From an uncultured Ignavibacteria bacterium (GTDB lineage: Bacteria; Bacteroidota; Ignavibacteria; Kapaibacteriales; UBA2268), in NCBI GenBank assembly GCA_903862655.1, contig CAIOZA010000126.1, positions 1 to 44,582 of the forward strand: 44,582 bases of DNA, written 5' to 3'. The notes beneath the pieces were generated by a model that was given only the letters and a program-made list of their open reading frames with translations, was not told the origin of the DNA and did not search any database. Below, in pieces: positions 4,527-41,737 of the stretch. Within the stretch, counting starts at the first letter, position 1. The number at the start of each line of letters is the position of its first letter. A program made the position numbers and the translations under genes.

Positions 4527-6815
4527 CTAATTCTCCACTATCTCAGATTTTTCTTTCAAATTCTTAACAAATGAAATAATAAATCCCAGAACAATAACCA
4601 TTACACCGATCCATACAAAACTAATAAAAGGTTTGAAGGACACTTCCATGGTGAGAATTTCCAATGGTTCTATGAACTTATCACTTGATTTCTTAAAAGT
4701 AAAAGCAGCTTCAAACTGAGAATTTTCGGTTTGAGAAGGTACAAAACTCCAGAAGGCAATGTCATAGTCTGTGTTAGGTATGTTTTTCCAAACAATGCCA
4801 CTGAACTCAGATGTTGATTTCATTTTAGTAAAGAGTGTGTCGACAGATTCTTTACCTTTATATTTATAAGTGACCAAAGCTCCCAGCAACGGATGATTTT
4901 TATCTGCTTCTTTTGATTGTCCCATTTCAAATTTATCTAACGAAATTGATATGTTCGTATCGAGGAAACATTTGATTGTTTCGGTTTCTCTAATACTTAT
5001 TGATTTGAATTCTTTATCGTAATCCGATGACTTCAAGACCAAATAAACATCTTCCAAAAAGAAACTTTTTATTCCTGGTTCGATAATCGGTGATTTTCTC
5101 TCATTAAAATCACTCCAGTAGACAACAGGATCGATAGAATATTTATTTCCATTCTTTTCCAGGTTTAATCTATACAAGAATTTCTGACGATCTTTGAGTT
5201 CCTTATCAATTTGCAATTTGTCAACAAAGCTTATATTATAGCCACTTATATTCTTTACGTCACCCTTTTTAATTTGAAAACTTACAGAAGAAGATTTAAC
5301 ACCAAGGATAAGAATTCCAATCATAAAGAAGGAGATTCCTATATGAGATAAATAGCCACCAAGAGAAAATGGATTCTTTCTAAGATTATTAATAGCGAAT
5401 TCAGCATTAACTATAAACGAAAAAATTATGGCAAATAACAGAAGAATTGATGTTAATTGAGTTATTCCATAAAAAATAAAAAGGCCTGAGAAAATAAGTG
5501 AAATAAACAAAGACAGAAGAGCCTTTTTAAATATTCCGCCAAATTGCGTTTTTTTCCAACTCATAAATAAACAAATTGCGTTAGAAAGCAGAATCAGAAA
5601 AGCAATAGGAAGATTTGTATCGTTATAGAATGACGTGGCTACTGAGCTTTTCTTAAAACCAAAGAGTTCAGTAATGATAGGCCAGCTTGTTCCAAAGAAC
5701 ACAAGAACAGAGGATAATAAAATAAAAATGGAACCTAGGGCAAGCATAAATTCTCTTGAGGCATAGCTCATATTAATTTTATTACTTGAGATCTCCTTAG
5801 CTCTCATAAAGAATGTGTATAAGCTGAATAAAACAAATAGGATCAGGATGCCGATTAATATAAAATAGACAGTGCTTCCCGGGTCAGTAAAAGAATGAAC
5901 CGATGATGCTCCAAGAATGCCGCTTCTTGTCAAAAATGTTGCATATAATACTAAAATGAATGACACAATTGCAAGTATAAAGTTAGTTTTTACCAATCCG
6001 TCGGTTTTCCTCTGAATAATCATAGTATGTACAAGTGCCATTGAGGTAAGCCATGGTAACAACGAAGAATTCTCAACAGGATCCCAACCCCAGAACCCGC
6101 CCCAACCAAGTGTTTCATAAGCCCAGAAGCCACCAAGCATGATTCCTAATCCTAAAATGGCAGATGCTGACAATACCCATGGATAGGCGAGCTCGACCCA
6201 TTGTTTGTATTCTTTTCGGATTAAAGCAGTAATTGCAAACACAAATGGGATAGCCAATGTAGCATAACCAATAAATAGTATGGGAGGATGAATAACCATC
6301 CAATAGTTTTCAAGAATTGGATTGAGTCCTCTTCCCTCTTCAGGGAGGAATCCGGTCTCAACACCTCTATCTTTAAAGGTTTCCCAAACAAAATCGAAAG
6401 GACTTTTCACAATTAATAACAAAAGTAAAAACATAATTATCAGACCATAGAACCCCATAACCATTGGCTCATAATTCGATTTCTTTGAATAGGGTATCAG
6501 GAAAATGCCTATTATAGCAAAGAAAAGCAACCATAGAAGGAATGATCCCTGTTGACCGGCATAAAACGATGCCATAAGTAAAAATGGGGGCAGCTGACTA
6601 TTAGAATTCTCCCATATATATGTGAACTGATAATTATGGTTGAATATGTTGACTAAAAGTATTCCAGAAACCAAAATGATTCCGGCAATAACTCCATAGA
6701 AAAGTCTCCTTGCCAATACAGTTACTTCTCCTTTTTTTGAATAAGAAACAAGATACAGTATTGAAGAAACTAATGATAATACAAATGCTATATCTATTAT
6801 TATTTTGCCTAGCAT
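4527..6815 (-). CDS. ccmF: Cytochrome c haem lyase subunit CcmF/NrfE family
   Basis: 762 residues, a polytopic inner-membrane protein with about 14 hydrophobic segments. The haem-handling tryptophan-rich WWD motif is at residues 238-255 (WGGFWGWDPVENSSLLPW), preceded by MVIHPP around residue 176 and followed by LVHTMII, which supply the conserved histidines. A periplasmic soluble region lies in the C-terminal third and a last membrane helix near the end. CcmF receives haem from CcmE and attaches it to CXXCH motifs of apocytochromes on the periplasmic side. The start is an ATG with AGGAG seven bases upstream, 12 nt after the OmpA-cytochrome gene, so it is probably the last gene of that operon. 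No other ccm gene lies in the window. Confidence 0.92.
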   Translation of the reverse strand: MLGKIIIDIAFVLSLVSSILYLVSYSKKGEVTVLARRLFYGVIAGIILVSGILLVNIFNHNYQFTYIWENSNSQLPPFLLMASFYAGQQGSFLLWLLFFAIIGIFLIPYSKKSNYEPMVMGFYGLIIMFLLLLLIVKSPFDFVWETFKDRGVETGFLPEEGRGLNPILENYWMVIHPPILFIGYATLAIPFVFAITALIRKEYKQWVELAYPWVLSASAILGLGIMLGGFWAYETLGWGGFWGWDPVENSSLLPWLTSMALVHTMIIQRKTDGLVKTNFILAIVSFILVLYATFLTRSGILGASSVHSFTDPGSTVYFILIGILILFVLFSLYTFFMRAKEISSNKINMSYASREFMLALGSIFILLSSVLVFFGTSWPIITELFGFKKSSVATSFYNDTNLPIAFLILLSNAICLFMSWKKTQFGGIFKKALLSLFISLIFSGLFIFYGITQLTSILLLFAIIFSFIVNAEFAINNLRKNPFSLGGYLSHIGISFFMIGILILGVKSSSVSFQIKKGDVKNISGYNISFVDKLQIDKELKDRQKFLYRLNLEKNGNKYSIDPVVYWSDFNERKSPIIEPGIKSFFLEDVYLVLKSSDYDKEFKSISIRETETIKCFLDTNISISLDKFEMGQSKEADKNHPLLGALVTYKYKGKESVDTLFTKMKSTSEFSGIVWKNIPNTDYDIAFWSFVPSQTENSQFEAAFTFKKSSDKFIEPLEILTMEVSFKPFISFVWIGVMVIVLGFIISFVKNLKEKSEIVEN

Positions 6816-6827
6816 TGAATTCTCCTA

Positions 6828-8624
6828 CTATTGTTTTAAAATTTTAATTTCTATTCTTCTGTTAGCAGCCTTACCTTTGTCGGTGGCAGAAGATTTAACA
6901 GGGAACAAACTTCCCTTGCCTTGTGAAAAAATTCTTCTTATGTTTATTCCCAATTTGGTAAGATAATTTTCAATGTTTTTTCCAATATTATTGGATATTT
7001 TCTGCAATTCCTGAGTTGAACCGACGTTGTCGGTGTGAACAACTATCATTATTCTTGCTTTCGGATTAGCTTTCATAAATTCATTTGCAGAATTTAAGTA
7101 ATTGTTTAATCCTTTGGTCTGCATAGCAACTTTCTCATTTTTATAATTGAAAGTTCTTGTTTGATTAAAATTAATTATTTCATTCTTAACGATAGGTTCG
7201 ATTTTCTTTGTGGGAATTTCGTCGAACTTCATATCAAAATTAATGTCATTAGCTGCAATCACTGAGGCACTATCTTTCAAATCAACCTGGAATGATATTT
7301 TATCCGGTTTTGCTTTCAATTCATCCAGATCATCGGTGTTCAGAGATAAATTATAGATACCGATTGGCAAGTTTGATCTTTGGAATTTTAGTTCTTTATC
7401 TAAGGGAAGAGTTTCATTAATCGTAGTATCAATATTCACCAGATTCAAGCCAAGTCCCTGAATTAGGCTCTTATTTATTGCCGGATCAACTTTAATTTGA
7501 CCTTTAATCGTTGACGATAATTTACTTAGATCCTGAGTTTTGTCTTTTGGTTGAGCCTTATCTTTTGCTTCTACAATTGGTTCAGATGATTTAACAAAGG
7601 AAGCTTTTATATTATACGATAATTGATCGTGGCATCCTGATTTGCATGTGCCGCCATCTTGAATTTGCGAATAATTAATAGGGAGAGACCATTTAGCGAA
7701 TCGTGTGGAACTTTTTATCAAATGTGCTCCGTCAGATCCGTGCACATCATGACAGATCATACAATTTCTGGATTTATCTCTATTAACGTGTATAAAATGA
7801 AGATTCATATCACCGTTTCTGAATCCTGTTGATTGAGCTTTATCTTTTAATAATATCTCATCAGAATGGCATGTAAAGCAGAGTGATCCAGTTTTGCCTT
7901 TCTCATACACATAAATATCTGTGTTAAAATCCGATGACATTAGCGATTTGTTTTTAGAAGCATGAGGAGTATGGCAACCAGTGCATCCAGATGTTACAGG
8001 ATCATGGACATTCTTAGAGGATAATTTCTGACTAATGTCCTCTATTGTATGATTAGATGCTTTTATTGGCTTGTTGTGGCAGCTTAGGCAAAGTTTGTCT
8101 TCTTCATTGCGCAAAAGTTTATTATATTTTGAGCTATGTGGCTCATGGCAAGTGCTGCATTCATTCTTCTTTACCGGACCATGGACATTCATTTCCTTGC
8201 CGGCTACATCATGACATTTAAGACAAATTGGCTTTCCTGCCTCAGTCTTGAGCAAATTTCTAAGATCGGAGCTGTGCGGATCATGGCATCCGAGGCATTC
8301 CCCTTTAGCCGCCGGAGAATGTTTGGATTTATCGCCACCCATAACGTCGTGGCAACCATTGCAAAGATCAGGAACCTTGTCTGCTAGTTCGTATTCTCTT
8401 CCTGTGCCTTCAGGATGATTCGCTTTTACCATTTTATGGCAGTTTGTGCAATCATCTTTAACGGGAACATGTTTAAACCAGCCTCTTGAAACCATAGTAT
8501 GACAACCTGATTCCAAACAGCTATTGCTAGTTGTTTTATCCTGGGTTCTAACGCCAAATAAGCTCGCAATCAAAACAAATGCGATTAGCGAAGCTATGTA
8601 AGTATATTTTTTAAAAGTATCCAA
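6828..8624 (-). CDS. Undecahaem c-type cytochrome fused to an OmpA-like peptidoglycan-binding domain
   Basis: 598 residues with an uncleaved or cleaved N-terminal hydrophobic segment (residues 9-25). Residues 36-332 carry nine CXXCH motifs, one CX4CH (CLESGCH, 36-42) and one CX3CH (CKSGCH, 327-332), so up to 11 c haems; many repeats have the paired CHxPH form. Residues about 365-480 are a haem-free beta-rich linker. The last ~100 residues are an OmpA C-terminal domain (ARIMIVVHTDNVGS, then NRRIEIKIL), which binds peptidoglycan. The start is a TTG with GGAAAG upstream; no in-frame ATG exists nearby and the 5' end overlaps the barrel gene by 14 nt. Predicted as a periplasmic, wall-anchored electron carrier that works with the barrel protein. 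The architecture is unusual; the electron-transfer role is inference. Confidence 0.88.
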   Translation of the reverse strand: MDTFKKYTYIASLIAFVLIASLFGVRTQDKTTSNSCLESGCHTMVSRGWFKHVPVKDDCTNCHKMVKANHPEGTGREYELADKVPDLCNGCHDVMGGDKSKHSPAAKGECLGCHDPHSSDLRNLLKTEAGKPICLKCHDVAGKEMNVHGPVKKNECSTCHEPHSSKYNKLLRNEEDKLCLSCHNKPIKASNHTIEDISQKLSSKNVHDPVTSGCTGCHTPHASKNKSLMSSDFNTDIYVYEKGKTGSLCFTCHSDEILLKDKAQSTGFRNGDMNLHFIHVNRDKSRNCMICHDVHGSDGAHLIKSSTRFAKWSLPINYSQIQDGGTCKSGCHDQLSYNIKASFVKSSEPIVEAKDKAQPKDKTQDLSKLSSTIKGQIKVDPAINKSLIQGLGLNLVNIDTTINETLPLDKELKFQRSNLPIGIYNLSLNTDDLDELKAKPDKISFQVDLKDSASVIAANDINFDMKFDEIPTKKIEPIVKNEIINFNQTRTFNYKNEKVAMQTKGLNNYLNSANEFMKANPKARIMIVVHTDNVGSTQELQKISNNIGKNIENYLTKLGINIRRIFSQGKGSLFPVKSSATDKGKAANRRIEIKILKQ

Positions 8625-10584
8625 AAGATCTTTCCAGTCTAAGGTACATGCCTATATAGTTAGTATTTGATGTTTCATATCTTTGATGATAATAATTAAA
8701 ACCAAACGAAAATAATGTTTCGTAATATCTCATTTTCAATTCAGCTCTCGTGTTGAGGTAACTCAAGTTAATATCAATAATCTTAGCATAGCTGTAATTA
8801 CTTTGAACATTAGCATACATCCAGCTTGATAAATTATAGACAAAAGATAAGTTAACATTTCCATTAATATTATGCTGACCTGTTTGATAATATTTCTGGT
8901 CAGAAAGAGTAGCATAAATATTGGTAGAGAATCCTTCCCAAATATTATCGTAGTATGAACAGTAAAAATCTAAAGTGCTATAAGGTGAAATATTGGAATT
9001 TATTACTGAATAATTTCCGGATGCCGACAATCTTCCCAGGTTAAGATTAAAGCCACCTGCCTTGATCTGTTCGATCCTAAGGAGATTAATATTCTGTATC
9101 TCAGGATTGTTAAATTTATTTTCGCTGAACCTGAAATACAGAGATAACATTCCATTGAAAATTGATAGGCTTGCATTTGCTGATTGACTTAACATGTCAT
9201 ATTTATATCGATCTGGAACCTCAGGAATATAATCAATATAAACTGTTGATTTGTCTGGTATCCTGCCAGTGGGAATCCTAAGAATTTGGAAAAAATTATT
9301 TACTAAAACAATCATATAGTCAATATTTTTCTGGAATATAAGAGTTCCTGTCACATCTTTGATAATAATTGAACTTTCTATAACATTGGGATACTTCAAT
9401 AAAGTCTGCTTGGCATCTTCAAGAAGATATTCTTCATTTCTTATGGATAATGATGAAGATTCGTTGTTCCTGCTCAGGTTATTTTTTTTAAAGCTATACC
9501 CTAATCCAAATCGCCCTGTTGGTATCCTTTTTGTGTAATCGAAAGTGCATCCGTAAATATGATCTACTTCGTCGTAGTTCTTTACGCCACTGGTCGATTG
9601 AGCGGAGTTAAGATATTCATAAAAAATTCGTGAGTTCAGATTTGAGTAAAGTTGATGCTGTAATTGTATCATAGGTGAATGGATTACATTTTCTGTACTG
9701 TCTATTGCATTCTTGAGGTAGTTGTAACGACCGTTTAATTTGAATCTATAAGGAAGAGCTACATTAAGATTGAGCATCTCATTTAGTCTTTTATTGTTGA
9801 AATCGCCCTTTGAATCGGTAAATGCAGTATTTGAATTTAGTTGAATGAACCCATTTGGAAGTCCAAGATTATTGGATAAAGAAACATCAAGAATGTTATT
9901 TTTATATCCTACGGAATCAAAATACTGTGTTCTTACCTTCTGGTAAGACATATTTATGCTGTTGCTCATAAAATCCAAAATATCTCGAGATGCTGTGGCA
10001 TTTATCTGATCAATCGTGCTTGAATAATTATAGCTGGATATTAAATCTTTTTGTGTTGATATTTGTTTTGAATATGAAGCTGTTAAAGGTAGAATACTAT
10101 TCATGAATGAGGAAGAGGCACCATATCCCTGCATTATACTCTGGATTTTTTCTCCAAATTCACGGCTCATAATAGTGTTATTCATATTGCCAAACAGGTT
10201 CAAATTGATTGGTAGGGAATTAAATATTGCAACCTGACCATCTAAACTATTTGTGTTCATATTGTCTGTCATTTCGGGCAGAGCAATATATTTTGTAGGA
10301 TTAATTGATGGAGAGTATTCTCCATTAAGATCGAAAGCTATAAAATTTGGTTCCCAAATAAATGCTGATGTTGAGAACTTAAAATTGCCTTTATACAAGA
10401 TTTGATTAGCCGTTTCATCAAAAGCAGATTGTTGACGGTTTCTATACAATGCCTCTAATGAAATATCACCTTTATAGTATTTGATAAATAAAGGATCTAA
10501 AGGTATGTACTCCTGGCAAATTGATCTGGATGTGATCAAAATGCTTAGTAAAGCAATTATATATATTTTGAATATTGTCTTCAA
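8611..10584 (-). CDS. Outer-membrane beta-barrel protein, candidate cytochrome-conduit porin
   Basis: 657 residues with a signal peptide (MKTIFKIYIIALLSILITSRSICQ) and a final Phe (RLERSFGYF), both typical of outer-membrane barrels. Long runs of alternating aromatic and polar strands separated by turns run through residues 60-390 and 460-657, enough for more than 20 strands. Around residues 395-455 sits a small soluble insert (VIESSIIIKDVTGTLIF, then IPDKSTVYIDYIP). No haem motif is present. The start is a TTG, with a TAA two codons before it in frame, and the 3' end overlaps the 11-haem OmpA fusion gene by 14 nt, implying coupled expression. By analogy with MtrB- and OmbB-type sheath porins it may hold a cytochrome in the outer membrane, but I see no clear sequence match to those families. 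Confidence 0.7.
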   Translation of the reverse strand: MKTIFKIYIIALLSILITSRSICQEYIPLDPLFIKYYKGDISLEALYRNRQQSAFDETANQILYKGNFKFSTSAFIWEPNFIAFDLNGEYSPSINPTKYIALPEMTDNMNTNSLDGQVAIFNSLPINLNLFGNMNNTIMSREFGEKIQSIMQGYGASSSFMNSILPLTASYSKQISTQKDLISSYNYSSTIDQINATASRDILDFMSNSINMSYQKVRTQYFDSVGYKNNILDVSLSNNLGLPNGFIQLNSNTAFTDSKGDFNNKRLNEMLNLNVALPYRFKLNGRYNYLKNAIDSTENVIHSPMIQLQHQLYSNLNSRIFYEYLNSAQSTSGVKNYDEVDHIYGCTFDYTKRIPTGRFGLGYSFKKNNLSRNNESSSLSIRNEEYLLEDAKQTLLKYPNVIESSIIIKDVTGTLIFQKNIDYMIVLVNNFFQILRIPTGRIPDKSTVYIDYIPEVPDRYKYDMLSQSANASLSIFNGMLSLYFRFSENKFNNPEIQNINLLRIEQIKAGGFNLNLGRLSASGNYSVINSNISPYSTLDFYCSYYDNIWEGFSTNIYATLSDQKYYQTGQHNINGNVNLSFVYNLSSWMYANVQSNYSYAKIIDINLSYLNTRAELKMRYYETLFSFGFNYYHQRYETSNTNYIGMYLRLERSFGYF

Positions 10585-10744
10585 TTTTTACTTTTTTATT
10601 CCCTACTAACCCATTGCTGCGAATGAGAAATTTCAAAATAATTTAATAATTTATCTATAAAGCTGAATTTAACAACCGAAGAATACGGTTCAAAATTCCA
10701 TCAGATCCTTCAACGTTAAAGGATTGTTAAGCAAGAAATATTAT

Positions 10745-11332
10745 TTACTTCATAAACGTTCTGTCACTGCCTCCATGAGGGTTATGGCAATCCCAGCATT
10801 TTGTTTCTCCAATATCCGAATGGATATCATTCTTCATTACCGATTCCTTTTCGTGACAATAATAGCATAAATTTTGGTCATCAATTTTTAACAGACTGGA
10901 AAACTTTGATTTATGCGGATCATGGCATACAGTACAACTTCCAATAATAACAGGACCATGTTTAAATACAAATTTCTTATTAAAATCATCATGGCATGTG
11001 TAGCACAGTTTTGGTGGAGTTTCCGTTAACGCAAAGCTATTGCCAATGTCGTGGCAATTATTGCATCCATCCTCTTCTGCAGGTGGATGGGTTATTTCTG
11101 GAGCAGCATTTTGTGCTGGTTTTACTGCTGATGTATCTTTAGCTGCAAGGTTTGTAGAATCTTTAACGGTTTTAGTTGAATCCGGAAGCGGCACATCATC
11201 AAAAAATATAGTAAGAACATCATAACTCTGCCTTGAAGAACAGGATAATGAAAGTATTAATAATGATATAAACAGAATGCCATAAACTACTCTATTTAAA
11301 TTTGACTTATTTATATCTGTTCTTGTTTTCAT
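10745..11332 (-). CDS. Pentahaem c-type cytochrome lipoprotein
   Basis: 195 residues. The hydrophobic segment ends in LSLSC (Cys31), a plausible but not ideal lipobox. Residues 32-85 are a low-complexity linker rich in Lys, Thr and Ala. Five CXXCH motifs follow (CNNCH, CYTCH, CTVCH, CYYCH, CWDCH), several in the paired CHDPH/CHNPHGG form of the doubled CXXCH family. A long flexible tether and a compact haem domain suit a membrane-attached electron relay, in the outer membrane on either face. It lies between the NHL lipoprotein and the barrel gene, all on the same strand, with a strong hairpin before it at 11368-11397. Confidence 0.85.
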   Translation of the reverse strand: MKTRTDINKSNLNRVVYGILFISLLILSLSCSSRQSYDVLTIFFDDVPLPDSTKTVKDSTNLAAKDTSAVKPAQNAAPEITHPPAEEDGCNNCHDIGNSFALTETPPKLCYTCHDDFNKKFVFKHGPVIIGSCTVCHDPHKSKFSSLLKIDDQNLCYYCHEKESVMKNDIHSDIGETKCWDCHNPHGGSDRTFMK

Positions 11333-11367
11333 TCTAATGTTTGCTTAAAGGTGCAAATATATCTATA

Positions 11368-11397
11368 TTCAACAACACCCTGAGGGGTGTTGTTGAA
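11368..11397. terminator. Strong 13-bp hairpin between NHL lipoprotein and 5-haem genes
   Basis: TTCAACAACACCC (11368-11380) and GGGTGTTGTTGAA (11385-11397) pair perfectly around the tetraloop TGAG. It lies 95 nt after the stop of the NHL lipoprotein gene. The T tract on the minus strand is poor, so it may be a leaky terminator or a processing and stability element rather than a full stop. Confidence 0.55.
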
Positions 11398-11491
11398 ATA
11401 AAAATAAGCTTTACTGATATTATAATTTTTTTGATAAATTTAGTAATGTCAGTCCAACGGAATTTTCTTTCTTTGATATAATCTATATAGA

Positions 11492-12568
11492 TCATTTTAG
11501 ATCTACAAAACCATAGACTGTAATCCTATCCGGACCAAACTGATTTGTTACGAAGATTAAATATTTGAGATTATACTTGCTGTCCACGTATTTTCTGAAG
11601 TAATCTAAGTTATCATAGTCGATTGTGATTCTGATGGGCATGTCTAGAAATCCGGGACCCATTTTCTCACCTCCAAAATCCATCATTGGTTCGCCATTTC
11701 TGTTAAAGATCTGAACATTATTAAATTGAGCGTCAATAACATATAAGTAGTCGTCTTTATCAACCGCTATACCTTTAGGTCTGGAGAATTGACCGGGATA
11801 TTCGCCATAAGTTCCAACATTAGAAATAAAATTGCCGTTCAAATCAAATTTTTTGATGTGAAATTCTCCAAAATCGGTAACATAAAATATATCATTCACA
11901 ACTGCAATGTGAATTGGCTGGTGAATAAATGCCGTGTCTTTATCGGATACATTTGGGAAGGATGATAGTAATTTATAATCGTCTTTTGAGAATACGAATA
12001 TTTTCATTTGTTTCATGTCAGAGACATAGATCTTGTCCTTATATGCAACTACATCCGTTGGTTTTTCTAAAATTTTCAAACCGAAGCTATTTTTATAATT
12101 CATGTCATGGTCAAACACAACAATTTCCTTGCGAACCTGGTCGGTCACAAATAAGTTACCGTTAGTATCGGCAAAGCAATTTATTGGGTTCTTTAAATTT
12201 CCTAATCCTGGTGGGTTTTTAAATTCGAATGATTTGTTCTGAAAATCAATTTTATATATTCCACCAAGCTTAAAATCAACTACAAATATCTTGTTTTTTA
12301 TAACACTGATGCCATGAGGTTTCTGTATTCCGGAATTATCATCTTTTCCGGATACATATTTCTTGAACGACGAAGCTTCACCTGTTATGTCAGTCGATTG
12401 GCTTATTGTTGTCAAGAACTGCACTCTGGCTGTGTCGGGCGGTGGAGGAAAAAAGATAGTTTCCTGCTTTGCAGTATCAGTTTTTTTCTGTGTTGCACAG
12501 GAAGAAATTAATGTAATAAGTGCCAGTATTAGAATAATTCTATTTATAATGATGATTGGTTTTAACAT
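11492..12568 (-). CDS. NHL-repeat beta-propeller lipoprotein
   Basis: 358 residues. The signal ends in LISSC with Cys24, a good lipobox. The body is an NHL/6-bladed propeller: blades are visible as KPHGISVIKNKIFVVDF, KNPINCFADTNGNLFVTD, RPKGIAVDKDDYLYVIDA and similar. The strand pattern G-x-A-V-D plus D-x-x-N-x-R-V-Q-I-F is clear in the last blades (YVIDAQFNNVQIF). NHL propellers are protein-interaction platforms. They recur next to multihaem cytochromes in metal-reducing bacteria, and here a second NHL gene (16140-17156) sits beside another multihaem cytochrome. Function in haem protein export or assembly is inference only. Confidence 0.85.
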   Translation of the reverse strand: MLKPIIIINRIILILALITLISSCATQKKTDTAKQETIFFPPPPDTARVQFLTTISQSTDITGEASSFKKYVSGKDDNSGIQKPHGISVIKNKIFVVDFKLGGIYKIDFQNKSFEFKNPPGLGNLKNPINCFADTNGNLFVTDQVRKEIVVFDHDMNYKNSFGLKILEKPTDVVAYKDKIYVSDMKQMKIFVFSKDDYKLLSSFPNVSDKDTAFIHQPIHIAVVNDIFYVTDFGEFHIKKFDLNGNFISNVGTYGEYPGQFSRPKGIAVDKDDYLYVIDAQFNNVQIFNRNGEPMMDFGGEKMGPGFLDMPIRITIDYDNLDYFRKYVDSKYNLKYLIFVTNQFGPDRITVYGFVDLK

Positions 12569-12779
12569 GATATACTATTTCATAAAATTGATAAATTAAT
12601 CGAAGCAAACTTACATAAATTTTAAAATTATTTAAAGTATTAATACCAGAAGCAAATGTGTTTTCGAAGAGAGAATCAAAGAAGCAATTATCTATCTAAA
12701 AGTTGTGGCTATCTTAATTACAATTATCACTTGGAAAGCACCTCTGTGTAAAGAATCAATTATCGTTCATTTAACATTA

Positions 12780-12807
12780 AAATGGGGGGTAAAAGGACCC
12801 CCCATTT
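12780..12807 (-). terminator. Rho-independent terminator of the tetrahaem cytochrome gene
   Basis: Ten-base perfect stem AAATGGGGGG / CCCCCCATTT with an 8-nt loop, 24 nt after the stop of the minus-strand tetrahaem gene, followed on that strand by a short T run. It isolates the tetrahaem gene from the genes downstream. Confidence 0.8.
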
Positions 12808-12831
12808 TTTAAAATTCAATTCTTAGTGTTA

Positions 12832-13491
12832 TTATTTATTGTGGCATGTGATGCACAATGCAGAACTATTATTATTCATTCTCAAAAGATTGGGAATGTT
12901 TGATGGTGCATTTTGACCAATTACTTCTGTTGCTCCATGAGCTGTATGGCATGTGCTGCATTCAACATTGTATTTTGCGCCATTTACATCTGCTTTTGTA
13001 AGTCTGAGTGAACCGATTTTACCTGCACTTGTTACTGGTTTCATAGATGTTGAAGTTCCTGTATATCCTAATGCTGCTGGTTTGTATTCAACACTTATTG
13101 GATGATCGTTTGATAAATCTGTTCCTAGTAAAGCTCCGCCGTGACCTTCTGTACCGGGCATCATTGATTGACCTGTATTGCCGCTGAATGAATTTAAAGC
13201 AACTGTACCATCATGGCAGCTAAGGCATTTTCTTGATGTTTCTGTAACAGCACCAAGTTCAGTAGCAAAATCAGTACGTTTTGTAGTGTAAGTTGCTACT
13301 GTTGGTGCATGGTTCCACAATCTTGTTGTTGCTCCATAATGACCGTGAGGTGCGTGGCAAGGAAGGCAGATCTGTGTGCTTGCATTCCAAGTTGCGCCGC
13401 TAAAATTGTGTTTTGTTCCCTGAATACCTGTCTGAGCGAATGTGCTTGCACTAAAAAGTACAACGAGTAAGACTAAACCTAAATACTTCAT
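12832..13491 (-). CDS. Tetrahaem c-type cytochrome, OmcE-like candidate extracellular filament subunit
   Basis: 219 residues from the ATG at 13491, chosen because GGAGG lies seven bases upstream; a longer frame to 13551 exists but has no such site. A signal peptide ends at SASTFAQ (residues 14-20). Haem motifs are at 42-46 (CLPCH), 89-93 (CLSCH), 178-182 (CSTCH) and 213-217 (CITCH). Four other histidines stand in family-type contexts and could be the distal ligands: His28 (TKHN), His49 (CHAPH), His130 (NDHPIS) and His185 (CHTAH). The pattern CHAPH, LWN, CLSCHDGTVAL, NDHPIS is what I associate with OmcE of Geobacter, which polymerises into cytochrome nanowires. Its own terminator and strong ribosome binding site suggest high single-gene expression. 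Filament formation is a hypothesis. Confidence 0.85.
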   Translation of the reverse strand: MKYLGLVLLVVLFSASTFAQTGIQGTKHNFSGATWNASTQICLPCHAPHGHYGATTRLWNHAPTVATYTTKRTDFATELGAVTETSRKCLSCHDGTVALNSFSGNTGQSMMPGTEGHGGALLGTDLSNDHPISVEYKPAALGYTGTSTSMKPVTSAGKIGSLRLTKADVNGAKYNVECSTCHTAHGATEVIGQNAPSNIPNLLRMNNNSSALCITCHNK

Positions 13492-13551
13492 AAAAAAACC
13501 TCCGAAAAATAAAAAGTTAAAAATAAAAAGGAGCGTTAAGAGAAAACGCAA

Positions 13552-14433
13552 TACCTAAAAAAATTAAATTCAAAAACTACAAACTTTTTATTTGATTTCT
13601 GCGAACATTCTATTTCTTTAATAAATCCATTTATGCAGGAAATTAGATTGCAAATATCAAAACTTTAAGCTAACAAATTTCAAGTAACAATTGTCAAATA
13701 ACAAAACAAATATTGAAATTGTATTGTTTCATTTGTAAAATATTAATAATTTTATTTCTGTGCAAGCACACGAAGGATACAGAATATATTTTTGGGGTTA
13801 AAACTATATATGAATCTATACGAAGAGGATAGGTAAGGGAGCTTAAAGCAGGCGAAAAATCAAATAATACTTATTTGCATTTCATTCTAGAACAAGATTA
13901 ATACGGCGTGTATAAGATTATAAAAATAAATAACTAGTCATTTTTGGAATTTACAAATAGCAACACGCCAATTACAGTAGTTGTAATTTAATTAATGGCC
14001 CTAAGAGATAAATGATCTCAAAAATTAAAATTTCATAAGATTTATTATCCTGAAATATCACGGTGCAATAAGCCTTTTGAAGGTATGTTTGGATCAAAGT
14101 ATATTACCATTGAATAAGGTCAAAATGTTGGTATGAAAGAGAAAATGATAAGCATTATTTTGAAATATTTCCCTCCGATATGAATAATGCAATTAGAATC
14201 ATGATAGCATAACATGGTTCTTTTTCAACTTTTATTTATTTTAGCTGTAGTTTTATAAATAAGCTGTAAAATCCCAGGCTACTGCGTGCCATGCGTTCTC
14301 TTGGATTAGCGGATGAAGTGGTATCGGATGGTTGACAATTTGGGTAGTGCATCTCACTGGAAAAGCCGAAAGCAAGACAAGACAATGCAGATTAGATCTG
14401 TTGCAAACTGATTAAAATGTATAAAAATATCTT
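13552..14433. other. 880-nt intergenic region between tetrahaem and 12-haem genes
   Basis: No intact gene on either strand. The part nearest the tetrahaem gene (13552-13750) is AT-rich and should hold its promoter, although I cannot point to a convincing -33/-7 pair. 13760-14030 shows nothing recognisable. 14040-14366 is a decayed partial copy of the 12-haem gene, listed separately. Confidence 0.6.
14040..14366 (-). pseudogene. Decayed partial copy of the 3' end of the 12-haem cytochrome gene
   Basis: Two stretches align by eye with the neighbouring gene. 14056-14230 follows the order of 14470-14640: GTGCAATA-GCCTTTTGA, ATTACCATTG, AGAATCATG and others. 14262-14366 follows 14768-14880, including the near-identical GCTGTAAAATCCCAGGC and GGATGAAGTGGTATCGGATG. 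The intervening ~125 nt are mostly deleted. The copy has many substitutions and frame breaks, and its counterpart of the CXXCH Cys codons is damaged (for example GGCAATCCGAGCAGTACA has become TGACAATTTGGGTAGTGCA). It is a dead duplicate lying directly downstream of the intact gene in the same orientation. Confidence 0.75.
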
Positions 14434-16137
14434 TTAATATGACTTTTTATCATGCTTTTTGCTGTGACAAGTCATTGTGCAATAGCCTTTTTGAGGACCT
14501 GTTTGAGCCCAAATTAAATTACCATTGTATGGCGTCACTACGTTAGTATTAAAGTTAATTAGATGAGAATTATTAGTAACGTTCCCCTGAGTTTGACTTA
14601 TACCATGAGAATCATGGCAAACATTACAAGGTGTTTTTTCGTCCTTGATGTGTTTGGAGTGGCTCTTAAATGATTTATCATCAAGGATAGATTCGCTACT
14701 GTGACATTTGAAGCAAAGAGCATAAGCAGAAACGGAGTAGGATGTTTTATCTGTAGTTTCATATCTGAGCTGTAAAATCCCAGGCCACTGAGAGCCATGC
14801 GGACCTCTCGGATTAACAGATGAAGTAGTATCGGATGAATGGCAATCCGAGCAGTACATTCTGCTTGAAACAGTCCAAGGGCTGATCAGACTAGGTACAT
14901 TGGTGCTTTTGCCAACTGCTTCTATAGGATGAAATGAAATTGCATTAGCGTCGAATTCTAAAGCAACGTTGTTCTGAACGATTTTTCTAGCTATAGCACT
15001 AGCAGGTTTCCAATTATTTGAGGTATGGCATCTATAGCAGATCTGATACTCATATAGAGCTGATTGAACAAGGTTACCATCGGTATCAACACCTCTTACT
15101 CCCTTGAGTTTCCCGTTGACAAAAGGAGCAGCCGCAATTGTATTATCGCTTTGATGAGGATTATGACAATCAGTACATTCTGCATGCTTTTGAGTAGGAA
15201 GAATATTTTCATTCGGTGTATGAGTTGCTGTTCCCAGATAATCAGCAATCCTATGTCTGTAAGTCTTATTAAACTGTGTTTGGATATTTTTTGATGGAGC
15301 AGCTACAGATCCGTTATGGCAATATAAACAATTGTTCTCTTCGATAGAATAATTCAATAGTCTGTCGGGACCGCCAGCATTGTGAGGAGAATGACAATTT
15401 TCGCAGGCATTCTTGGCTACTGTTGTATATGGAGTATGTTGCCAAGGATTCGTTCCAGAATTGTTCCAAGTAGCTGAGGAAGTATTATGTTTGGATGCAG
15501 CCCAATTTGTGAGATTATGACAGCTATTACAAAGAAGAGATGATTCGTTGGTCGCAACTAAAAATTTAGAAGTAAGATTTGTATGTGGATCATGACATGA
15601 TGTACATTGAACCTTTTGATTATGATCAAGTCTTACGGGTGAAGTCAAAAGAGTTGGATTTTTTAACTGTGGATTTAATGTAACGAGTGAAGCATTATAT
15701 GGAAATGAAATTGGATGATCATTGGATAAATTTTGTCCAAGGTTAGTTTTACCGGAAGGCATGAATGAATTTGAACCAAAGCTAATTTCTGATGGTCTGC
15801 TCACTATTGAACCTAAGGCAACAGAGCCATCATGGCAGGACAAGCATTTAATTGAAGCACCGTCAGGTCTTGCAATAGTAGCCTGGAGCGTAGAGCTAGA
15901 ATATAGAGTGTAAGATGCCAAGTTTGGATCACGTCTGTTCCAGAGCTGCATTTTGGGTGTAGTGTTATGAGGAGCATGGCAAAAAATACAAATCTCCGTT
16001 TCATTCGCAGCTTTTACAGTGTTTATGCTTTGACTAGAAAGATTGTGTTTGGTTGTTGAAATTTTTTGCGAAAAAATATCAGAATTACTAACGATTATCA
16101 AAACCAGCAATATAATAACTGTAACGACATATTTCAT
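14434..16137 (-). CDS. Dodecahaem c-type cytochrome with N-terminal OmcE-like tetrahaem module
   Basis: 567 residues with a signal peptide (MKYVVTVIILLVLIIVSNSDIFS). Eleven CXXCH motifs (CIFCH 50-54, CLSCH 98-102, then CTSCH, CNSCH, CENCH, CLYCH, CTDCH, CYRCH, CSDCH, CFKCH, CNVCH) and a last CX3CH (CTMTCH) near the C-terminus give up to 12 haems. The first four haems repeat the layout of the tetrahaem protein at 12832 (TKHN, CHAPH, LWNR, CLSCHDGSVAL, NDHPIS), so it is that module extended by eight haems. Many motifs continue as CHDPH or CHNPH. Secreted or periplasmic multihaem conduit; no membrane anchor after the signal. It starts two bases after the NHL gene stop with AGAGGAA upstream, so the two are one operon. 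Confidence 0.88.
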   Translation of the reverse strand: MKYVVTVIILLVLIIVSNSDIFSQKISTTKHNLSSQSINTVKAANETEICIFCHAPHNTTPKMQLWNRRDPNLASYTLYSSSTLQATIARPDGASIKCLSCHDGSVALGSIVSRPSEISFGSNSFMPSGKTNLGQNLSNDHPISFPYNASLVTLNPQLKNPTLLTSPVRLDHNQKVQCTSCHDPHTNLTSKFLVATNESSLLCNSCHNLTNWAASKHNTSSATWNNSGTNPWQHTPYTTVAKNACENCHSPHNAGGPDRLLNYSIEENNCLYCHNGSVAAPSKNIQTQFNKTYRHRIADYLGTATHTPNENILPTQKHAECTDCHNPHQSDNTIAAAPFVNGKLKGVRGVDTDGNLVQSALYEYQICYRCHTSNNWKPASAIARKIVQNNVALEFDANAISFHPIEAVGKSTNVPSLISPWTVSSRMYCSDCHSSDTTSSVNPRGPHGSQWPGILQLRYETTDKTSYSVSAYALCFKCHSSESILDDKSFKSHSKHIKDEKTPCNVCHDSHGISQTQGNVTNNSHLINFNTNVVTPYNGNLIWAQTGPQKGYCTMTCHSKKHDKKSY

Positions 16138-16139
16138 TT

Positions 16140-17156
16140 TTAATTTCCTCTAATTAACTTAAATATCTGAATACGGGAATTGAAGGTGTCTGCAACATAT
16201 ATAAAATTTCTTGAATCAATATATATACCCGATGGAAAATATAATTGACCATTGTCCTTGCCTAAACCACCAAAATTATATAAAAAATTGCCTTCTTTAT
16301 CAAAAACTTGAATAACATTAAACAAAGCATCAACAATATAGATATGCCCAAAAGAATCTGTTGCAATTCCTTTGATGCTGGAGAAATATCCCGGTGAATC
16401 CCCTGTTTCTCCGAACATATTAACAAACTGGCTACTTGAGTTATAGATTTGTATTCTGAAATTCAGGGCATCAACAATGTAAACCAAACCATTTGAGTCA
16501 ATCCACAAATAGGTGGGGAAGTTGAACTCCTCTTTCTTATTACCTCTTTTACCAATTACTCTTTTTATATTCCCATTATTATCGAGAACTTTTACTTGGT
16601 GCATACCTGTTTCAGTAATCCATATTTCTTTAGTAGTTGAATTATAATCGATACCTGTCGGCTGATTCAATATAAGACTATCGAATAATGCTTTTGGAGT
16701 GTCGTCCTCAATGCTCAAAGAGTAAATTTTATTTAGCTTTGAATCTGTGAAGAGAATTGTATTATTCTCCCATTTACAAATACCCAATAATGAAGGGTAA
16801 GAAGATTTTTGTTGATAAAATTCGATTCTTTGTTTGTCAATATTTATGATTACAGGAAATTTAATACCTTGATCCAACGCTATAATCGAGTTGGTATCCA
16901 AAGCGATAAGATTGACAGGTTTTTGTAAAGTGATATTTGACTTGCCAAAAATAAAATCCTTTACCGATTGCAAAATGCTAGATTTTGATTCTAAATCTTC
17001 GATAGAGGAAAGTTGCTTTAGCCAGACAACTGAAAAATCATTAGCATCAGCACTATGATTAGTCTCTGAATTCTGAGCAATAAGAAAATTACAGTTGCTG
17101 ATTAAGACATAAGTAATAATAATAGAAACAAAATATTTAAAGGTTCTTCTTTTCAC
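16140..17156 (-). CDS. Secreted NHL-repeat beta-propeller protein
   Basis: 338 residues with a signal peptide (hydrophobic 9-27, ending NFLIAQ). The propeller is clear in the C-terminal half, with blades FPTYLWIDSNGLVYIVDA, IKGIATDSFGHIYIVDA and FPSGIYIDSRNFIYVADT, each followed by NxRIQIF-like strands and Gly-rich turns (FGETGDSPGYF, FGGLGKDNGQLYFP). The apparent start is GTG at 17156, without a clear ribosome binding site. Unlike its relative at 11492 it has no lipobox. It is the first gene of an operon with the 12-haem cytochrome. A role as partner or assembly factor for the cytochrome is plausible from the repeated NHL-cytochrome pairing here, not shown. Confidence 0.82.
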   Translation of the reverse strand: MKRRTFKYFVSIIITYVLISNCNFLIAQNSETNHSADANDFSVVWLKQLSSIEDLESKSSILQSVKDFIFGKSNITLQKPVNLIALDTNSIIALDQGIKFPVIINIDKQRIEFYQQKSSYPSLLGICKWENNTILFTDSKLNKIYSLSIEDDTPKALFDSLILNQPTGIDYNSTTKEIWITETGMHQVKVLDNNGNIKRVIGKRGNKKEEFNFPTYLWIDSNGLVYIVDALNFRIQIYNSSSQFVNMFGETGDSPGYFSSIKGIATDSFGHIYIVDALFNVIQVFDKEGNFLYNFGGLGKDNGQLYFPSGIYIDSRNFIYVADTFNSRIQIFKLIRGN

Positions 17157-17349
17157 AGATAAAAATATAATAAAATAATAATTTCAAAATACGATTTAGT
17201 TAAGAAAATAAACTTTTTCAAATTTATATTCTTCTAAAATAATAGAAATAAAATTGAAAAGCAATAATTAAAGAAATAGTTTAAATAAAGGTAGATATTT
17301 AAAACCATTTATGGTGATTTAATATATGAAGCATTGTGCTTAAGTAGCT

Positions 17350-18054
17350 TTATATTATACTACTTTCCTTAACAAAGCGATAACCTTTTGTGTGAACTGT
17401 CAATATATGAATAGGTTTAGATGGATCATGTTCAATTATTTTTCTTAGGTTAAGTATGTAATTATCCACTGTTCTTGTTGTTGGATAGTTTTCATAGCCC
17501 CAGACATCGTCCAAAAGCATTTCCCGTGTCACTATTCTACCTTCCCGCTCAATAAAGTATTTTAGTACCTGGAATTCTTTTGCAGACATTTCAACGTGTG
17601 CCGAATCAGTTCTCAGTTCTTGATTTGCCCAATCGACGGTAAAAATACCAAACTTATATTTTTCATCGGAGTTTGTCAGAGGTTTTAACATTTCGCTTCT
17701 TCTAAGGTGAGCTCTCAACCTGGCATTAACTTCCCTGATGCTGAACGGTTTTGTGATATAATCATCGGCACCGATTTCCAATCCAAGTATTTTATCCAGT
17801 TCTTCGGTTTTGCTTGTGAGCATAATTATTGGAGTTGTTAACCCTAAAGTTCGTAAATCTTTGCAAATATCTAATCCATTTTTTTTTGGTAGCATAATAT
17901 CCAGAAGAATGACATCCGATGATTGAGAACTCGCCATTTGGAAGCCTTCTTCACCATCTCTGGCAGTTAGTACATCGTAATTTTCTGATTCAAGATAGGA
18001 TTTCAAGCCCTCTAGGATTGAAGGATCATCCTCGATAATCAATATTTTAGCCAT
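17350..18054 (-). CDS. OmpR/PhoB-family response regulator
   Basis: 234 residues. Receiver domain 1-120 with acidic pocket Glu8-Asp9-Asp10, phospho-acceptor Asp52 (VILLDIMLPKKNGLD), and the conserved TS and KP (DDYITKPFS). A winged-helix DNA-binding domain fills 135-232 (SAKEFQVLKYFIEREGRIVT, then TRTVDNYILNLRKIIEHD and HTKGYRFV). It overlaps the kinase gene by 8 nt, and its ATG follows GGAGATAAAA. It is phosphorylated by that kinase and binds DNA as a tandem dimer, normally at direct repeats. Targets are unknown; the neighbouring cytochrome locus and the divergent nucleotidase gene are the obvious candidates. Confidence 0.92.
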   Translation of the reverse strand: MAKILIIEDDPSILEGLKSYLESENYDVLTARDGEEGFQMASSQSSDVILLDIMLPKKNGLDICKDLRTLGLTTPIIMLTSKTEELDKILGLEIGADDYITKPFSIREVNARLRAHLRRSEMLKPLTNSDEKYKFGIFTVDWANQELRTDSAHVEMSAKEFQVLKYFIEREGRIVTREMLLDDVWGYENYPTTRTVDNYILNLRKIIEHDPSKPIHILTVHTKGYRFVKESSII

Positions 18055-20506
18055 TTTTATCTCCTATTGGAAATGTTAAAATAAACCGTGAACCTTTGCC
18101 AATTTGACTCTCAGCTTTTATAGTTCCGCTATGAGCGGTGACTATACTTTTCACAAGTGAAAGTCCTATTCCTGCTCCTCCAGCATGTGCAGTGCTTGTT
18201 GTCTTGGCACGATAAAATGCTTCAAATATATGCTGAAGATCATCTTCTGCCATCCCAACTCCTTTGTCGGCGACTATAAGAACAAAATCTGATTCATTTT
18301 GATCAAGTGAGATAGTTATTTCCCTGTTGGAATCGGAATACTTTAAAGAATTAGATATAAGATTTATAAGTACTTCTATTATAGAATCTTTATCTGCTTT
18401 AATAAATGAATATTTAGGTTTAATATCCAGAATAACATCAAAATTATTTTTTTGAATCTGATTACCCATAACAGACATAACTGTCGAAATGAGATCGGTG
18501 AGATTAACGTCATCAAAATAGTACTGCTTAACTCCTCGCTCAATTTTGGAATAATCCAGGATATTATTAATCAGTCTATTTAAACGATCACATTCTGACT
18601 GTATGATCTCAAGATATTCGTCTTTCTTAGCAATTTCCAGATTTCTGTTTATCTGAAGCAACTCAGCAAAAAGTCTGATTGACGTTAGTGGAGTTTTGAG
18701 TTCATGAGAAACACTCGATACAAAGAAAGATTTCATTTTATTGAGCTCAGCCAGTTTTTCATTTTCTTCTTCTCTGAGAGTAATCTCTCGAGTTAGAGTT
18801 ATTCTTTGAATAGATGATGTTGTACGATCAAGTTTGTATCGCATGGCTTCGATATCTTCATGACTGAACTTTATTCTTTTGTTGTGAAGTCCCACCAGAA
18901 GCAAGCCCATCATTTGCCGGTTGTCCGATAGAGACTGAATGATAACATGAATACCGGCTTTATCAAATATCTTATCGGTAAGCAGAAAGCTTGTATAGCC
19001 TTCCTCTATTGCGTGCCTTTTTGAAATGGTTAGAGATGTCGGGTATTCCTGGCTATATTCGATAATTTTATTGATATTATCCTCAATACTATCTAAGCCC
19101 TTTGTATGAGTATTGATTAAGTTCATATTCTTAGTACTAAAGATAATAAAGCCTAGCTTTTCGATTGAGATACTTTCACTAACAGATTCCAGAAGAAGTG
19201 CTGAAACTTGCTCGATAGTATATATATCTTTTAGTTTTTCAGTGAAGATTTGATTGCTGACTTTGTAATCATAATATTGACGGAAGAAATTTTTATCTAC
19301 AAATGCCTGTAGTGAATTTTTAACTGGTTGAAAAAGAACTATTAGTATAAAAACAATGATTACAAAATACATATTCTCAATGCCAGTTTTTATTCCAGGT
19401 ATGAGACTTACACTAATAAAATAGATAGCAATCAATATTCCGAACATAAGCAGGTAAACGTAACTCCTGCTAATAAGAAAATCAATATCGAATAATCTGT
19501 ACCGAAATATTGCTATGAAGATGCTTATGGGAGCCGTGATGGTAACAAGAATCATCAGCCATTCTGGTACAATCTGACTTCCTAATATGTATTTTGGAAT
19601 CTGCCAGAGAATTACGAAATTTAATACCGCAATCGAAGTCCCTATCATGATCCAGCGAATTTTACGCTTTTCGGCTGCATCATCTGACTGAATATAGGAT
19701 TTAAGAAGAGCATAAAGTGCAGTACAGATCAAAGCTATAGAAGGAATATCAATAACATATTCCTTATATAGCTCCCAAGTACGGAATGCAGGCAATGATA
19801 ATTCCTTTACTGATTGATAGGAAGAATATGAAACTATAATTCCAAGTATAATACTTATAGTATATAAAACTCTGGATAGTAACAAGTGTTTCATGAACTT
19901 TACTTTTGGAAACACAAGGAAAAAGTGAAGAAGATTAATGCTTAGAATTATCATACTGAAAATATATAAAAACCTAAGTATATAATCAATGAAATTACCA
20001 TAAAAATTGATTTTTCCTAAAGTCATGCCAATCAATAATGCCGCTGTATAGGCGACGTTATGGAATAGACGGAACACAGTATTATTAGGATTGCGGCTAA
20101 TAACATAAATTGCCACCCAAACATAGATTGATAAGGTAATAGCATAAATTATGAGGTATAAATAATCATAGAATTTTATTAGTGTAATAGAGATGTTTTG
20201 GATCCCATATTTATTTTTGTATGTAATTTGAATTTTCTCACCAGTCTTAAGCCAGTCTGTAACATACTCGATCTCATCGGGAGTTTTAACAAGGTAGTGA
20301 TGAATAGTTAAGACGGTATCATTTTTTTTAATTTTTACAGAAGAATCCTTAACGTCAGTGACAATTATATTTCTTTTTATGCTGTCAAGTTCGGTTGTGA
20401 ATGGCAAGGCAGGTTTTTTAGTAACATTGACAAATGATAAAAGGAGCAAAACCAATAGAATTGCATCAAGAATCATAAAATATATTTTTGAGCTCTGTAT
20501 TTTCAT
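18047..20506 (-). CDS. Membrane sensor histidine kinase
   Basis: 819 residues. A first membrane helix (8-27) is followed by a small periplasmic PDZ-like region (about 30-110), then a block of roughly eight hydrophobic segments (115-395) of the 7TM sensor type, with RNPNNTVFRLFH and FPKVKF near helix ends. Residues 400-570 resemble a GAF domain. HisKA has the phospho-acceptor His601 (FVSSVSHELKTPL). The HATPase domain shows the N box (LINLISNSLKYS), G1 (DKGVGM) and G2 (GGAGIGLSLVKSI). It is the only plausible partner for the regulator it overlaps. The signal sensed is unknown. Confidence 0.9.
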   Translation of the reverse strand: MKIQSSKIYFMILDAILLVLLLLSFVNVTKKPALPFTTELDSIKRNIIVTDVKDSSVKIKKNDTVLTIHHYLVKTPDEIEYVTDWLKTGEKIQITYKNKYGIQNISITLIKFYDYLYLIIYAITLSIYVWVAIYVISRNPNNTVFRLFHNVAYTAALLIGMTLGKINFYGNFIDYILRFLYIFSMIILSINLLHFFLVFPKVKFMKHLLLSRVLYTISIILGIIVSYSSYQSVKELSLPAFRTWELYKEYVIDIPSIALICTALYALLKSYIQSDDAAEKRKIRWIMIGTSIAVLNFVILWQIPKYILGSQIVPEWLMILVTITAPISIFIAIFRYRLFDIDFLISRSYVYLLMFGILIAIYFISVSLIPGIKTGIENMYFVIIVFILIVLFQPVKNSLQAFVDKNFFRQYYDYKVSNQIFTEKLKDIYTIEQVSALLLESVSESISIEKLGFIIFSTKNMNLINTHTKGLDSIEDNINKIIEYSQEYPTSLTISKRHAIEEGYTSFLLTDKIFDKAGIHVIIQSLSDNRQMMGLLLVGLHNKRIKFSHEDIEAMRYKLDRTTSSIQRITLTREITLREEENEKLAELNKMKSFFVSSVSHELKTPLTSIRLFAELLQINRNLEIAKKDEYLEIIQSECDRLNRLINNILDYSKIERGVKQYYFDDVNLTDLISTVMSVMGNQIQKNNFDVILDIKPKYSFIKADKDSIIEVLINLISNSLKYSDSNREITISLDQNESDFVLIVADKGVGMAEDDLQHIFEAFYRAKTTSTAHAGGAGIGLSLVKSIVTAHSGTIKAESQIGKGSRFILTFPIGDKNG

Positions 20507-41479: not shown

Positions 41480-41737
41480 TTTTTGTATTTTAAAACCACT
41501 TCTATTATTAAAAGCAAAATATTGTTTAAATATTATCGACTACTAAGCTCTTACTCTTTAAGTTAAATTAATATATTTAAGACAATTTAGTGATTGGAAA
41601 GGATCAATAATTTAAAATAAAATAATTTGCGAGATACAAATCAATAAAAATTTTGTAACTTTTGTTGGTTTTAATTGTTATTTATATCAATAAGATCTAA
41701 ATTTACTTTTCTATCTCTTTTATTAAATGGCTGTAAT

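Follow-up and report, generated by a model that had tools for sequence, protein, structure and literature searches.

How cytochrome nanowires are anchored in the membrane, and where electrons enter and leave them, are listed as open questions in a 2025 review (PMC12307469). In the OmcE nanowire of Geobacter sulfurreducens (entry 7tfs of the Protein Data Bank, PDB), haem 2 is described as ligated by a His from the neighbouring subunit (PMC12203936). The undecaheme electron transfer complex (Uet) of Tenderiales and Gallionella (Eddie 2022, as presented in PMC10734462) is described there as an undecahaem cytochrome with 11 to 12 motifs, an extracellular tetrahaem cytochrome, a barrel, NHL units, trihaem cytochromes and a peptidyl-prolyl isomerase (PPIase); a further account mentions the trihaem genes of Tenderia and a tetratricopeptide repeat (TPR) gene (PMC5371394). 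In the OetABI cassettes, and in the osc operon that surrounds OmcS, a nanowire cytochrome is described as having for neighbours a barrel, a propeller and cytochromes of both periplasm and surface (PMC10553843, PMC13194489), and in MtrAB and other porin-cytochrome conduits a large barrel accompanies MtrA-related cytochromes. Here we compare with these systems a cluster of eight genes on the minus strand (positions 4527 to 17156) of a 44,582-nucleotide stretch of DNA, contig CAIOZA010000126.1 from an uncultured Ignavibacteria bacterium, which was analysed as a whole and is called the window below. The cluster encodes a homologue of OmcE together with a 12-haem cytochrome that carries OmcE-like modules in tandem.

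OmcE-like modules in the tetrahaem and 12-haem cytochromes

The eight open reading frames (ORFs) read in the window all run in the same direction and code, from upstream to downstream, for an NHL beta-propeller (NHL1), a 12-haem cytochrome (Dodeca), a tetrahaem cytochrome (Tetra), a second NHL protein (NHL2), a five-haem cytochrome (Penta), an outer-membrane beta-barrel (Barrel), an 11-haem cytochrome fused to an OmpA domain (OmpAcyt) and a CcmF-like haem lyase. An original prediction, made from the letters alone, had given this inventory of two NHL proteins, barrel, CcmF and cytochromes with 12, 4, 5 and 11 haem motifs, and motif counts, Pfam and AlphaFold2 bear it out; Pfam also recognises doubled-CXXCH domains in cluster proteins. 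The prediction had further taken the locus for a conduit joining a barrel to periplasmic and surface cytochromes. The conserved barrel and multihaem set and the MtrA-related cytochromes described below agree with that view, which was incomplete in that it overlooked the relationship of Tetra to OmcE. A plain Mtr or Omb-Oma-Omc conduit as the whole story is rejected, Tetra being OmcE-like.

A phmmer search of solved structures matched Tetra over its full length to two entries, 9yuq (2.5e-19), a solved tetrahaem chain present in 16 copies, and OmcE itself (7tfs; 9e-19), and returned three further rows at chance level. Residues 24 to 239 of Tetra, numbered from the original ORF with its TTG start (13551-12832), align with residues 7 to 232 of the 7tfs chain, and the two proteins share four CXXCH motifs and four distal His. 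The N terminus of Tetra resembles a signal peptide, and the ATG at 13491 is preceded by GGAGG, which resembles a ribosome-binding site; the gene probably starts there rather than at the upstream TTG. In an alignment of 35 sequences (the window, 31 of the 61 listed Tetra-like proteins and three omcE orthologues of Geobacter relatives), the eight Cys and eight His of the four bis-His haems are kept in 35/35, and H65, a His outside this ligand set, is kept in 31/35. The distal His were absent from the patterns used to find the relatives, so that their conservation is not built in. Judged by sequence, Tetra is a homologue of OmcE over its full length and probably a filament subunit, and since Tetra is such a homologue, the output of the cluster is probably a filament. 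The ligand set of Tetra fits a polymer because haem 2 of OmcE borrows a ligand from the adjacent subunit; our guess, by analogy with OmcS, is that the His crossing the interface in OmcE is the N-terminal one. No match was found when plasmid records were searched with Tetra. At four loci of relatives (L032, L050, L070 and L072), the cluster is surrounded by between two and four Tetra-like genes, of which some code for a fifth CXXCH; these are possibly alternative wire subunits.

Residues 7 to 208 of Dodeca match OmcE (7tfs) at 1.3e-32 by sequence and 1.8e-47 by profile, and module 1 aligns with the Tetra family with an hhalign probability of 100 (E = 1.8e-65). The following residues (209 to 376) align with the same family over 120 columns (probability 98.2, E = 4.2e-14), with the first His, the four CXXCH motifs and the other distal His all collinear. 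As controls, residues 377 to 567 gave 18 columns at a probability of 13.6, and OmpAcyt and Penta reached a probability of 95 over merely 35 and 32 columns, corresponding to the local doubled-CXXCH repeat. Full-length relatives of Dodeca are 42 to 58 % identical, and in an alignment of 34 sequences (the window and 33 of the 43 listed Dodeca proteins) the 16 ligand His of the two modules, eight in each, are kept in 34/34 and in the order found in Tetra. On these alignments, Dodeca is two OmcE modules in tandem followed by a four-haem domain of its own, an architecture that suggests a built-in base, cap or adaptor for a nanowire. Tentatively, and with the balance of our judgement still against it, Dodeca (which is UetJ-like) could be read as a nanowire stub, two neighbouring OmcE subunits fused into one chain, in which the ligands of module 2 play, inside a single chain, the part of the adjacent subunit in the wire, and the four-haem domain docks on the barrel conduit. 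If this reading is true, Dodeca would supply the missing joint, electrical as well as mechanical, between outer-membrane conduit and nanowire under about ten phylum-level labels. The tandem OmcE architecture is what is new here, as far as the literature searched extends; there, a single paper contained both "undecaheme" and "OmcE", and its "undecaheme" is a different protein. In the gap ahead of the Tetra gene lies a remnant of the Dodeca gene, a partial and degraded duplicate of its 3' end that aligns as two collinear pieces, one at 80 % over 115 columns and the other at 69 % over 166.

Conservation of the cluster and its relation to described systems

A second, diverged copy of the whole cluster lies in the same genome on contig C21 (locus L008), and the barrels of the two copies are 29 % identical over the match. 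All eight genes stand in the same order in the window, at L008 and at L007 of a relative, and L009 of another relative has seven of them, without CcmF and with an 11-haem protein of 359 residues, too short for an OmpA domain. The order of the cluster is above chance, because the eight-gene order recurs at two loci and seven of the eight genes at a third. Tabulated across genomes, as the original prediction had proposed, co-occurrence is strong and not at chance level. Among 61 genomes of the same order, Tetra is present in three and the full-length barrel in the same three, and the barrel search gave one more row, G056, in which 115 residues match at 5e-4.

Wider sampling rested on a scan with Tetra, from which we took the best 79 loci of 540 relatives and searched them with profiles built from the window, L007, L008 and L009 only, at thresholds of 40 bits for the barrel, 50 for NHL, 250 for Dodeca, 90 for Penta and 200 each for OmpAcyt and CcmF. 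The barrel was found at 62 of these loci, NHL2 at 63, NHL1 at 53, Dodeca at 48, Penta at 47, OmpAcyt at 45 and CcmF at two, counts that derive from overlap-pruned ORFs and may be low, as missing genes were found at seven loci re-read without pruning. Many of the 79 end at contig ends, and L021, being the same place as L007, does not count as independent. Tetra is followed by NHL2 at 56/79, and NHL2 by Barrel, with or without Penta between them, at 54/79. Where the locus measured 18 kb or more (36 cases), the barrel was present in 33, barrel plus NHL in 31 and both together with Dodeca in 28; the barrel is missing from L058, L074 and L090, the first two of which are also under the NHL and Dodeca thresholds. 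Among the loci at which Dodeca scores above 500 bits, about ten phylum-level labels are represented; most of these loci come from metagenome bins, in which mis-binning is possible.

In 296 genomes of the phylum, any match (E 1e-3) to the barrel occurs in five and to Dodeca in 14, and the full-length proteins occur in the same two (G000 and G012). Three more genomes, all Bacteroidota, have a diverged Dodeca (291 to 336 bits) beside a different protein of 558 to 567 residues, which takes the barrel's place and is related to it over 100 columns (probability 92). Another class, that of L043, supplied 229 genomes, 46 with any Dodeca match and 12 with any barrel match. Full-length Dodeca is present in six (in one of them split over two contigs) and the full-length barrel in the same six and in 0/223 of the others, partial barrel matches being those of G782 and G797 (52 to 55 bits) and of four more genomes (18 to 31 bits). 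Such an exact overlap of six has a probability of 1/C(229,6) = 5.3e-12, uncorrected for shared ancestry; the Dodeca of L043 was itself among the query rows, and the contigs of the other five genomes differ in length from every query record. Tetra, NHL2, Barrel, NHL1 and Dodeca stand together at one locus in 5/6, and the sixth (L139, at a contig end) has four of them. At L036, L057, L086 and L098, ORFs of about 480 to 540 and 457 to 471 residues often lie between the 12-haem and tetrahaem genes; at L130 (2359-5240), two ORFs close by, of 502 and 457 residues, code for a histidine kinase and a sigma-54 response regulator.

The original prediction had not recognised the set as a described conduit type. 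Its five-gene core of tetrahaem cytochrome, barrel, two NHL proteins and 11- to 12-haem cytochrome nevertheless fits the published description of Uet (PMC10734462), in which these parts are UetA, UetC, UetHI and UetJ. This likeness is one of composition, and the cluster has a five-haem lipoprotein, an OmpA-fused 11-haem cytochrome and CcmF instead of the PPIase, trihaem and TPR genes described for Uet. We call it Uet-like rather than Uet because these extra parts are missing from it: none of the ten ORFs at 4527-20506, the part of the genome searched for them, codes for a PPIase (UetB), a trihaem cytochrome (UetDEG) or a TPR protein (UetF). Two or more trihaem ORFs of fewer than 170 residues were found at 0/79 of the best loci (pruned ORFs). 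The gammaproteobacterial loci L043, L134, L135 and L136 have single ORFs of 297 to 350 residues with three haem motifs, and eight unassigned ORFs of L135 and L136 proved to be a cytochrome, cytochrome b561 or Cache protein or to have no Pfam match, with no PPIase or TPR protein among them.

The likeness to the OetABI cassettes and the osc operon is likewise drawn from their descriptions (PMC10553843, PMC13194489). Those systems differ in their wire, OmcS or OmcX, which is reported to be unrelated to OmcE (PMC12203936), and in the PPIase chaperone of osc. An OmcS-type hexahaem wire cytochrome is absent from our cluster, in which the motif counts are 12, 4, 5 and 11 and the solved structures matched by Tetra above chance level are 7tfs and 9yuq. 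The cluster differs from MtrAB in that its barrel has no detectable sequence relation to the solved MtrB, MtrC-like domains are weak in Pfam, and a wire subunit is encoded.

Loci of omcE orthologues were followed in the family of G131, probably Geobacteraceae to judge by omcE matches of 59 to 64 % identity, in which OmcE-like matches occur in 34/48 genomes. At L112 to L114, OmcE is accompanied by an NHL protein, by cytochromes with 11 motifs and with 8 haems, and by a protein of 748 to 806 residues; L118 is similar. This neighbourhood is comparable to that of the cluster, which differs in its two-module 12-haem protein, its five-haem lipoprotein and its barrel; the 748- to 806-residue protein has no detectable relation to Barrel (probability 4.2). 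L115 to L117 carry the present barrel family (157 to 254 bits) with NHL, Dodeca and a tetrahaem gene.

Barrel, OmpA fusion and surrounding genes

With an alignment of 41 sequences (the window and 40 of the 58 listed barrels), AlphaFold2 gave a confident model of the 657-residue protein as a beta-barrel, with a mean predicted local distance difference test score (pLDDT) of 89.7, a predicted template modelling score of 0.68 and about 28 long strands counted from DSSP. A small folded insert lies between strands 17 and 18 of the model, and several nearly invariant positions sit in it. By strand parity the insert may be on the outer side, and it could serve as a plug or for docking.

The OmpA fusion, which the original prediction had put forward as the periplasmic member, is rejected as a defining part: among the OmpAcyt-family proteins of the 79 loci, 4/48 have more than 120 residues past the last haem. 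Pfam finds OmpA in two of these four (L045 and L068) and not in L041, from the cultured Carboxylicivirga marina, the fourth being L021; it also finds the domain in OmpAcyt of L007, the same place as L021, and of L008. A regular expression for OmpA gave zero matches, even in L021, and was dropped as insensitive. By these comparisons the fusion is a lineage add-on, a matter of local variation.

The features of the window are collected in Table 1. No Rfam match was found in the window at gathering thresholds. The two-component pair upstream of the cluster may regulate it, a link suggested by position only. The HybA-like, HybB-like and 13-CXXCH genes form a candidate quinol-to-periplasm module, all under the NCBIfam cut-offs, and the acyl-CoA dehydrogenase-like gene and the gene for an Fe-S protein lie close to it.

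Table 1. Coordinates of the cluster genes, their domains and other features of the window
Feature	Position	Strand	Evidence or remark
CcmF/NrfE-like haem lyase, 762 aa	4527-6815	-	Pfam CcmF_C 4.8e-33, Cytochrom_C_asm 2.1e-31
OmpAcyt, 11-haem cytochrome with OmpA domain, 598 aa	6828-8624	-	9 CXXCH, CX4CH and CX3CH
OmpA (peptidoglycan-binding) domain of OmpAcyt, residues 510-589	6858-7097	-	Pfam OmpA 3.8e-10
Barrel, outer-membrane beta-barrel, 657 aa	8611-10584	-	AlphaFold2 pLDDT 89.7
Barrel insert, residues 381-452	9229-9444		AlphaFold2 model
Penta, five-haem cytochrome, lipoprotein-like N terminus, 195 aa	10745-11332	-	5 CXXCH
NHL2, NHL protein, lipoprotein-like N terminus (ISSC), 358 aa	11492-12568	-	Pfam NHL 1.7e-11
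Tetra, OmcE-like tetrahaem cytochrome	12832-13491 (start ATG 13491)	-	4 CXXCH
Degraded partial copy of Dodeca gene 3' end	14063-14352
Dodeca, 12-haem cytochrome, 567 aa	14434-16137	-	11 CXXCH and 1 CX3CH
Dodeca C-terminal four-haem domain, residues 377-567	14437-15009	-	not OmcE-like
Dodeca module 2, residues 211-376	15010-15507	-	diverged OmcE-like tetrahaem module
Dodeca module 1, residues 23-210	15508-16071	-	complete OmcE-like tetrahaem module
NHL1, NHL beta-propeller, 338 aa	16140-17156	-	Pfam NHL 4e-20; adjoins 12-haem gene in relatives
Response regulator, OmpR-type	17350-18054	-	Pfam Response_reg 2.9e-31, Trans_reg_C 2e-24
Membrane histidine kinase	18047-20506	-	Pfam HATPase_c 7.7e-26, HisKA 3.9e-21
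HybA/HmcB-like Fe-S protein, HybB/HmcC-like NrfD-type membrane protein, 13-CXXCH cytochrome	26152-29533	+
Acyl-CoA dehydrogenase-like gene	30627-31778
Fe-S protein resembling TfrB/HdrD-type subunits	33411-35426
Type IX secretion C-terminal sorting domains	1638-3134, 20866-22731, 41675-43123		Por_Secre_tail; 20866-22731 slightly under cut-off

A proposed nanowire apparatus and its alternatives

With modest confidence, we favour the reading that the products of the cluster are an OmcE-type cytochrome nanowire and an outer-membrane apparatus that links the wire to the cell. Electrons from quinol, perhaps by way of the HybA/HybB-like and 13-motif cytochrome genes, would enter the 11-haem cytochrome OmpAcyt, which, anchored to the cell wall through its OmpA domain, would carry them across the periplasm. 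Either OmpAcyt or Penta would fill Barrel as MtrA fills MtrB. Dodeca would sit at the surface as the filament's base (or cap) and link the conduit's haem chain with the wire's, and Tetra would polymerise as the wire that receives electrons from Dodeca. The NHL proteins may act as a scaffold or give the wire its shape, and CcmF may add haem-loading capacity. That the flow is outward is our guess, inward flow being nearly as open.

The conduit part of this reading draws on the fold of Barrel and on its partner cytochromes. In VIA-align, the top row for Barrel is MtrB (6r2q_B; Z 18.2, root mean square deviation 7.1, 436 residues, spanning 36 to 654 of the MtrB fold), and the closest solved relative of both OmpAcyt (4.3e-12, residues 106 to 223) and Penta (2.4e-12, residues 108 to 169) is 6r2q_A. 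The 6r2q entry is the Mtr complex, and this chain, despite an odd molecule label in the PDB, is MtrA (PMC12203936). Several observations weigh against the favoured reading. The Z score of MtrB is tied with those of TonB-dependent receptors in the next eight rows (335 to 375 residues aligned), the top Foldseek rows are TonB-dependent receptors and LptD with MtrB 29th, and a search of PDB sequences with Barrel gave no match up to E 10, MtrB included. The MtrA matches are partial, doubled-CXXCH repeats match one another easily, and the DmsE-family model scored 98.6 bits against a cut-off of 192.2. The AlphaFold model of Dodeca is weak (pLDDT 65.4), so that the tandem-module reading rests on sequence, and the conservation of two of the four haem motifs in Tetra is partly built in, the search patterns for the relatives having held those two. 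Finally, the osc work is reported to read comparable proteins as a secretion channel (Shen 2025, through PMC13194489). The fold of Barrel, as modelled, permits an MtrAB-like conduit without proving one.

This last point leads to the main rival for Barrel, in which Barrel, the NHL proteins and the lipoprotein serve not as an electron conduit but to export and assemble the tetrahaem wire, which electrons reach in some other way. For the proteins around OmcS it has been proposed that OscH folds, OscE, OscF and OscG secrete and OscD shapes the wire (PMC13194489, citing Shen 2025), and the barrel and NHL genes closely follow the gene for the wire subunit in the counts of gene order given above. Set against these points, Barrel is accompanied by two MtrA-related cytochromes, the cluster has no OscH-like PPIase chaperone, and a conduit could serve both jobs; we regard export as possible but unlikely. 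A further alternative, in keeping with the Foldseek ranking and the tied Z scores, is that Barrel belongs to an unrelated transporter family and merely neighbours cytochrome genes. The confident assignment to such a family that would have told against the original prediction is not seen: neither Pfam nor NCBIfam has a family match for Barrel, and hence no plug or TonB domain was found, its roughly 28 long strands exceed the 22 of TonB receptors, and among the 229 genomes the full-length barrel occurs solely with full-length Dodeca, in six. This alternative appears very improbable.

Two further alternatives concern the wire and the direction of flow. Tetra might be a non-polymerising shuttle, soluble or bound to the surface, with Dodeca merely a larger relative, and conserved ligands are by themselves no proof of a filament; full-length homology to a protein with a solved filament and the complete ligand set make this improbable. 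The same machinery might instead run inward, with minerals, electrodes or partners supplying electrons to the cell. Uet, whose core has the same make-up, is described from cathode-oxidising Tenderiales and is present in iron-oxidising Gallionella (PMC10734462), whereas OmcE-type wires are described from metal reducers (PMC12307469), and we consider uptake doubtful, though a serious candidate.

The favoured reading, a nanowire with its outer-membrane apparatus, bears on how such wires are attached to cells, for which the locus offers a candidate joint, Dodeca, and a conserved list of parts. It also ties a Uet-like core to OmcE-type wires, a link that was not found in those parts of the literature that our searches reached. 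The locus is real and conserved, a Uet-like core with an OmcE-type wire, and Dodeca could provide a testable architectural clue to how the wire is attached.

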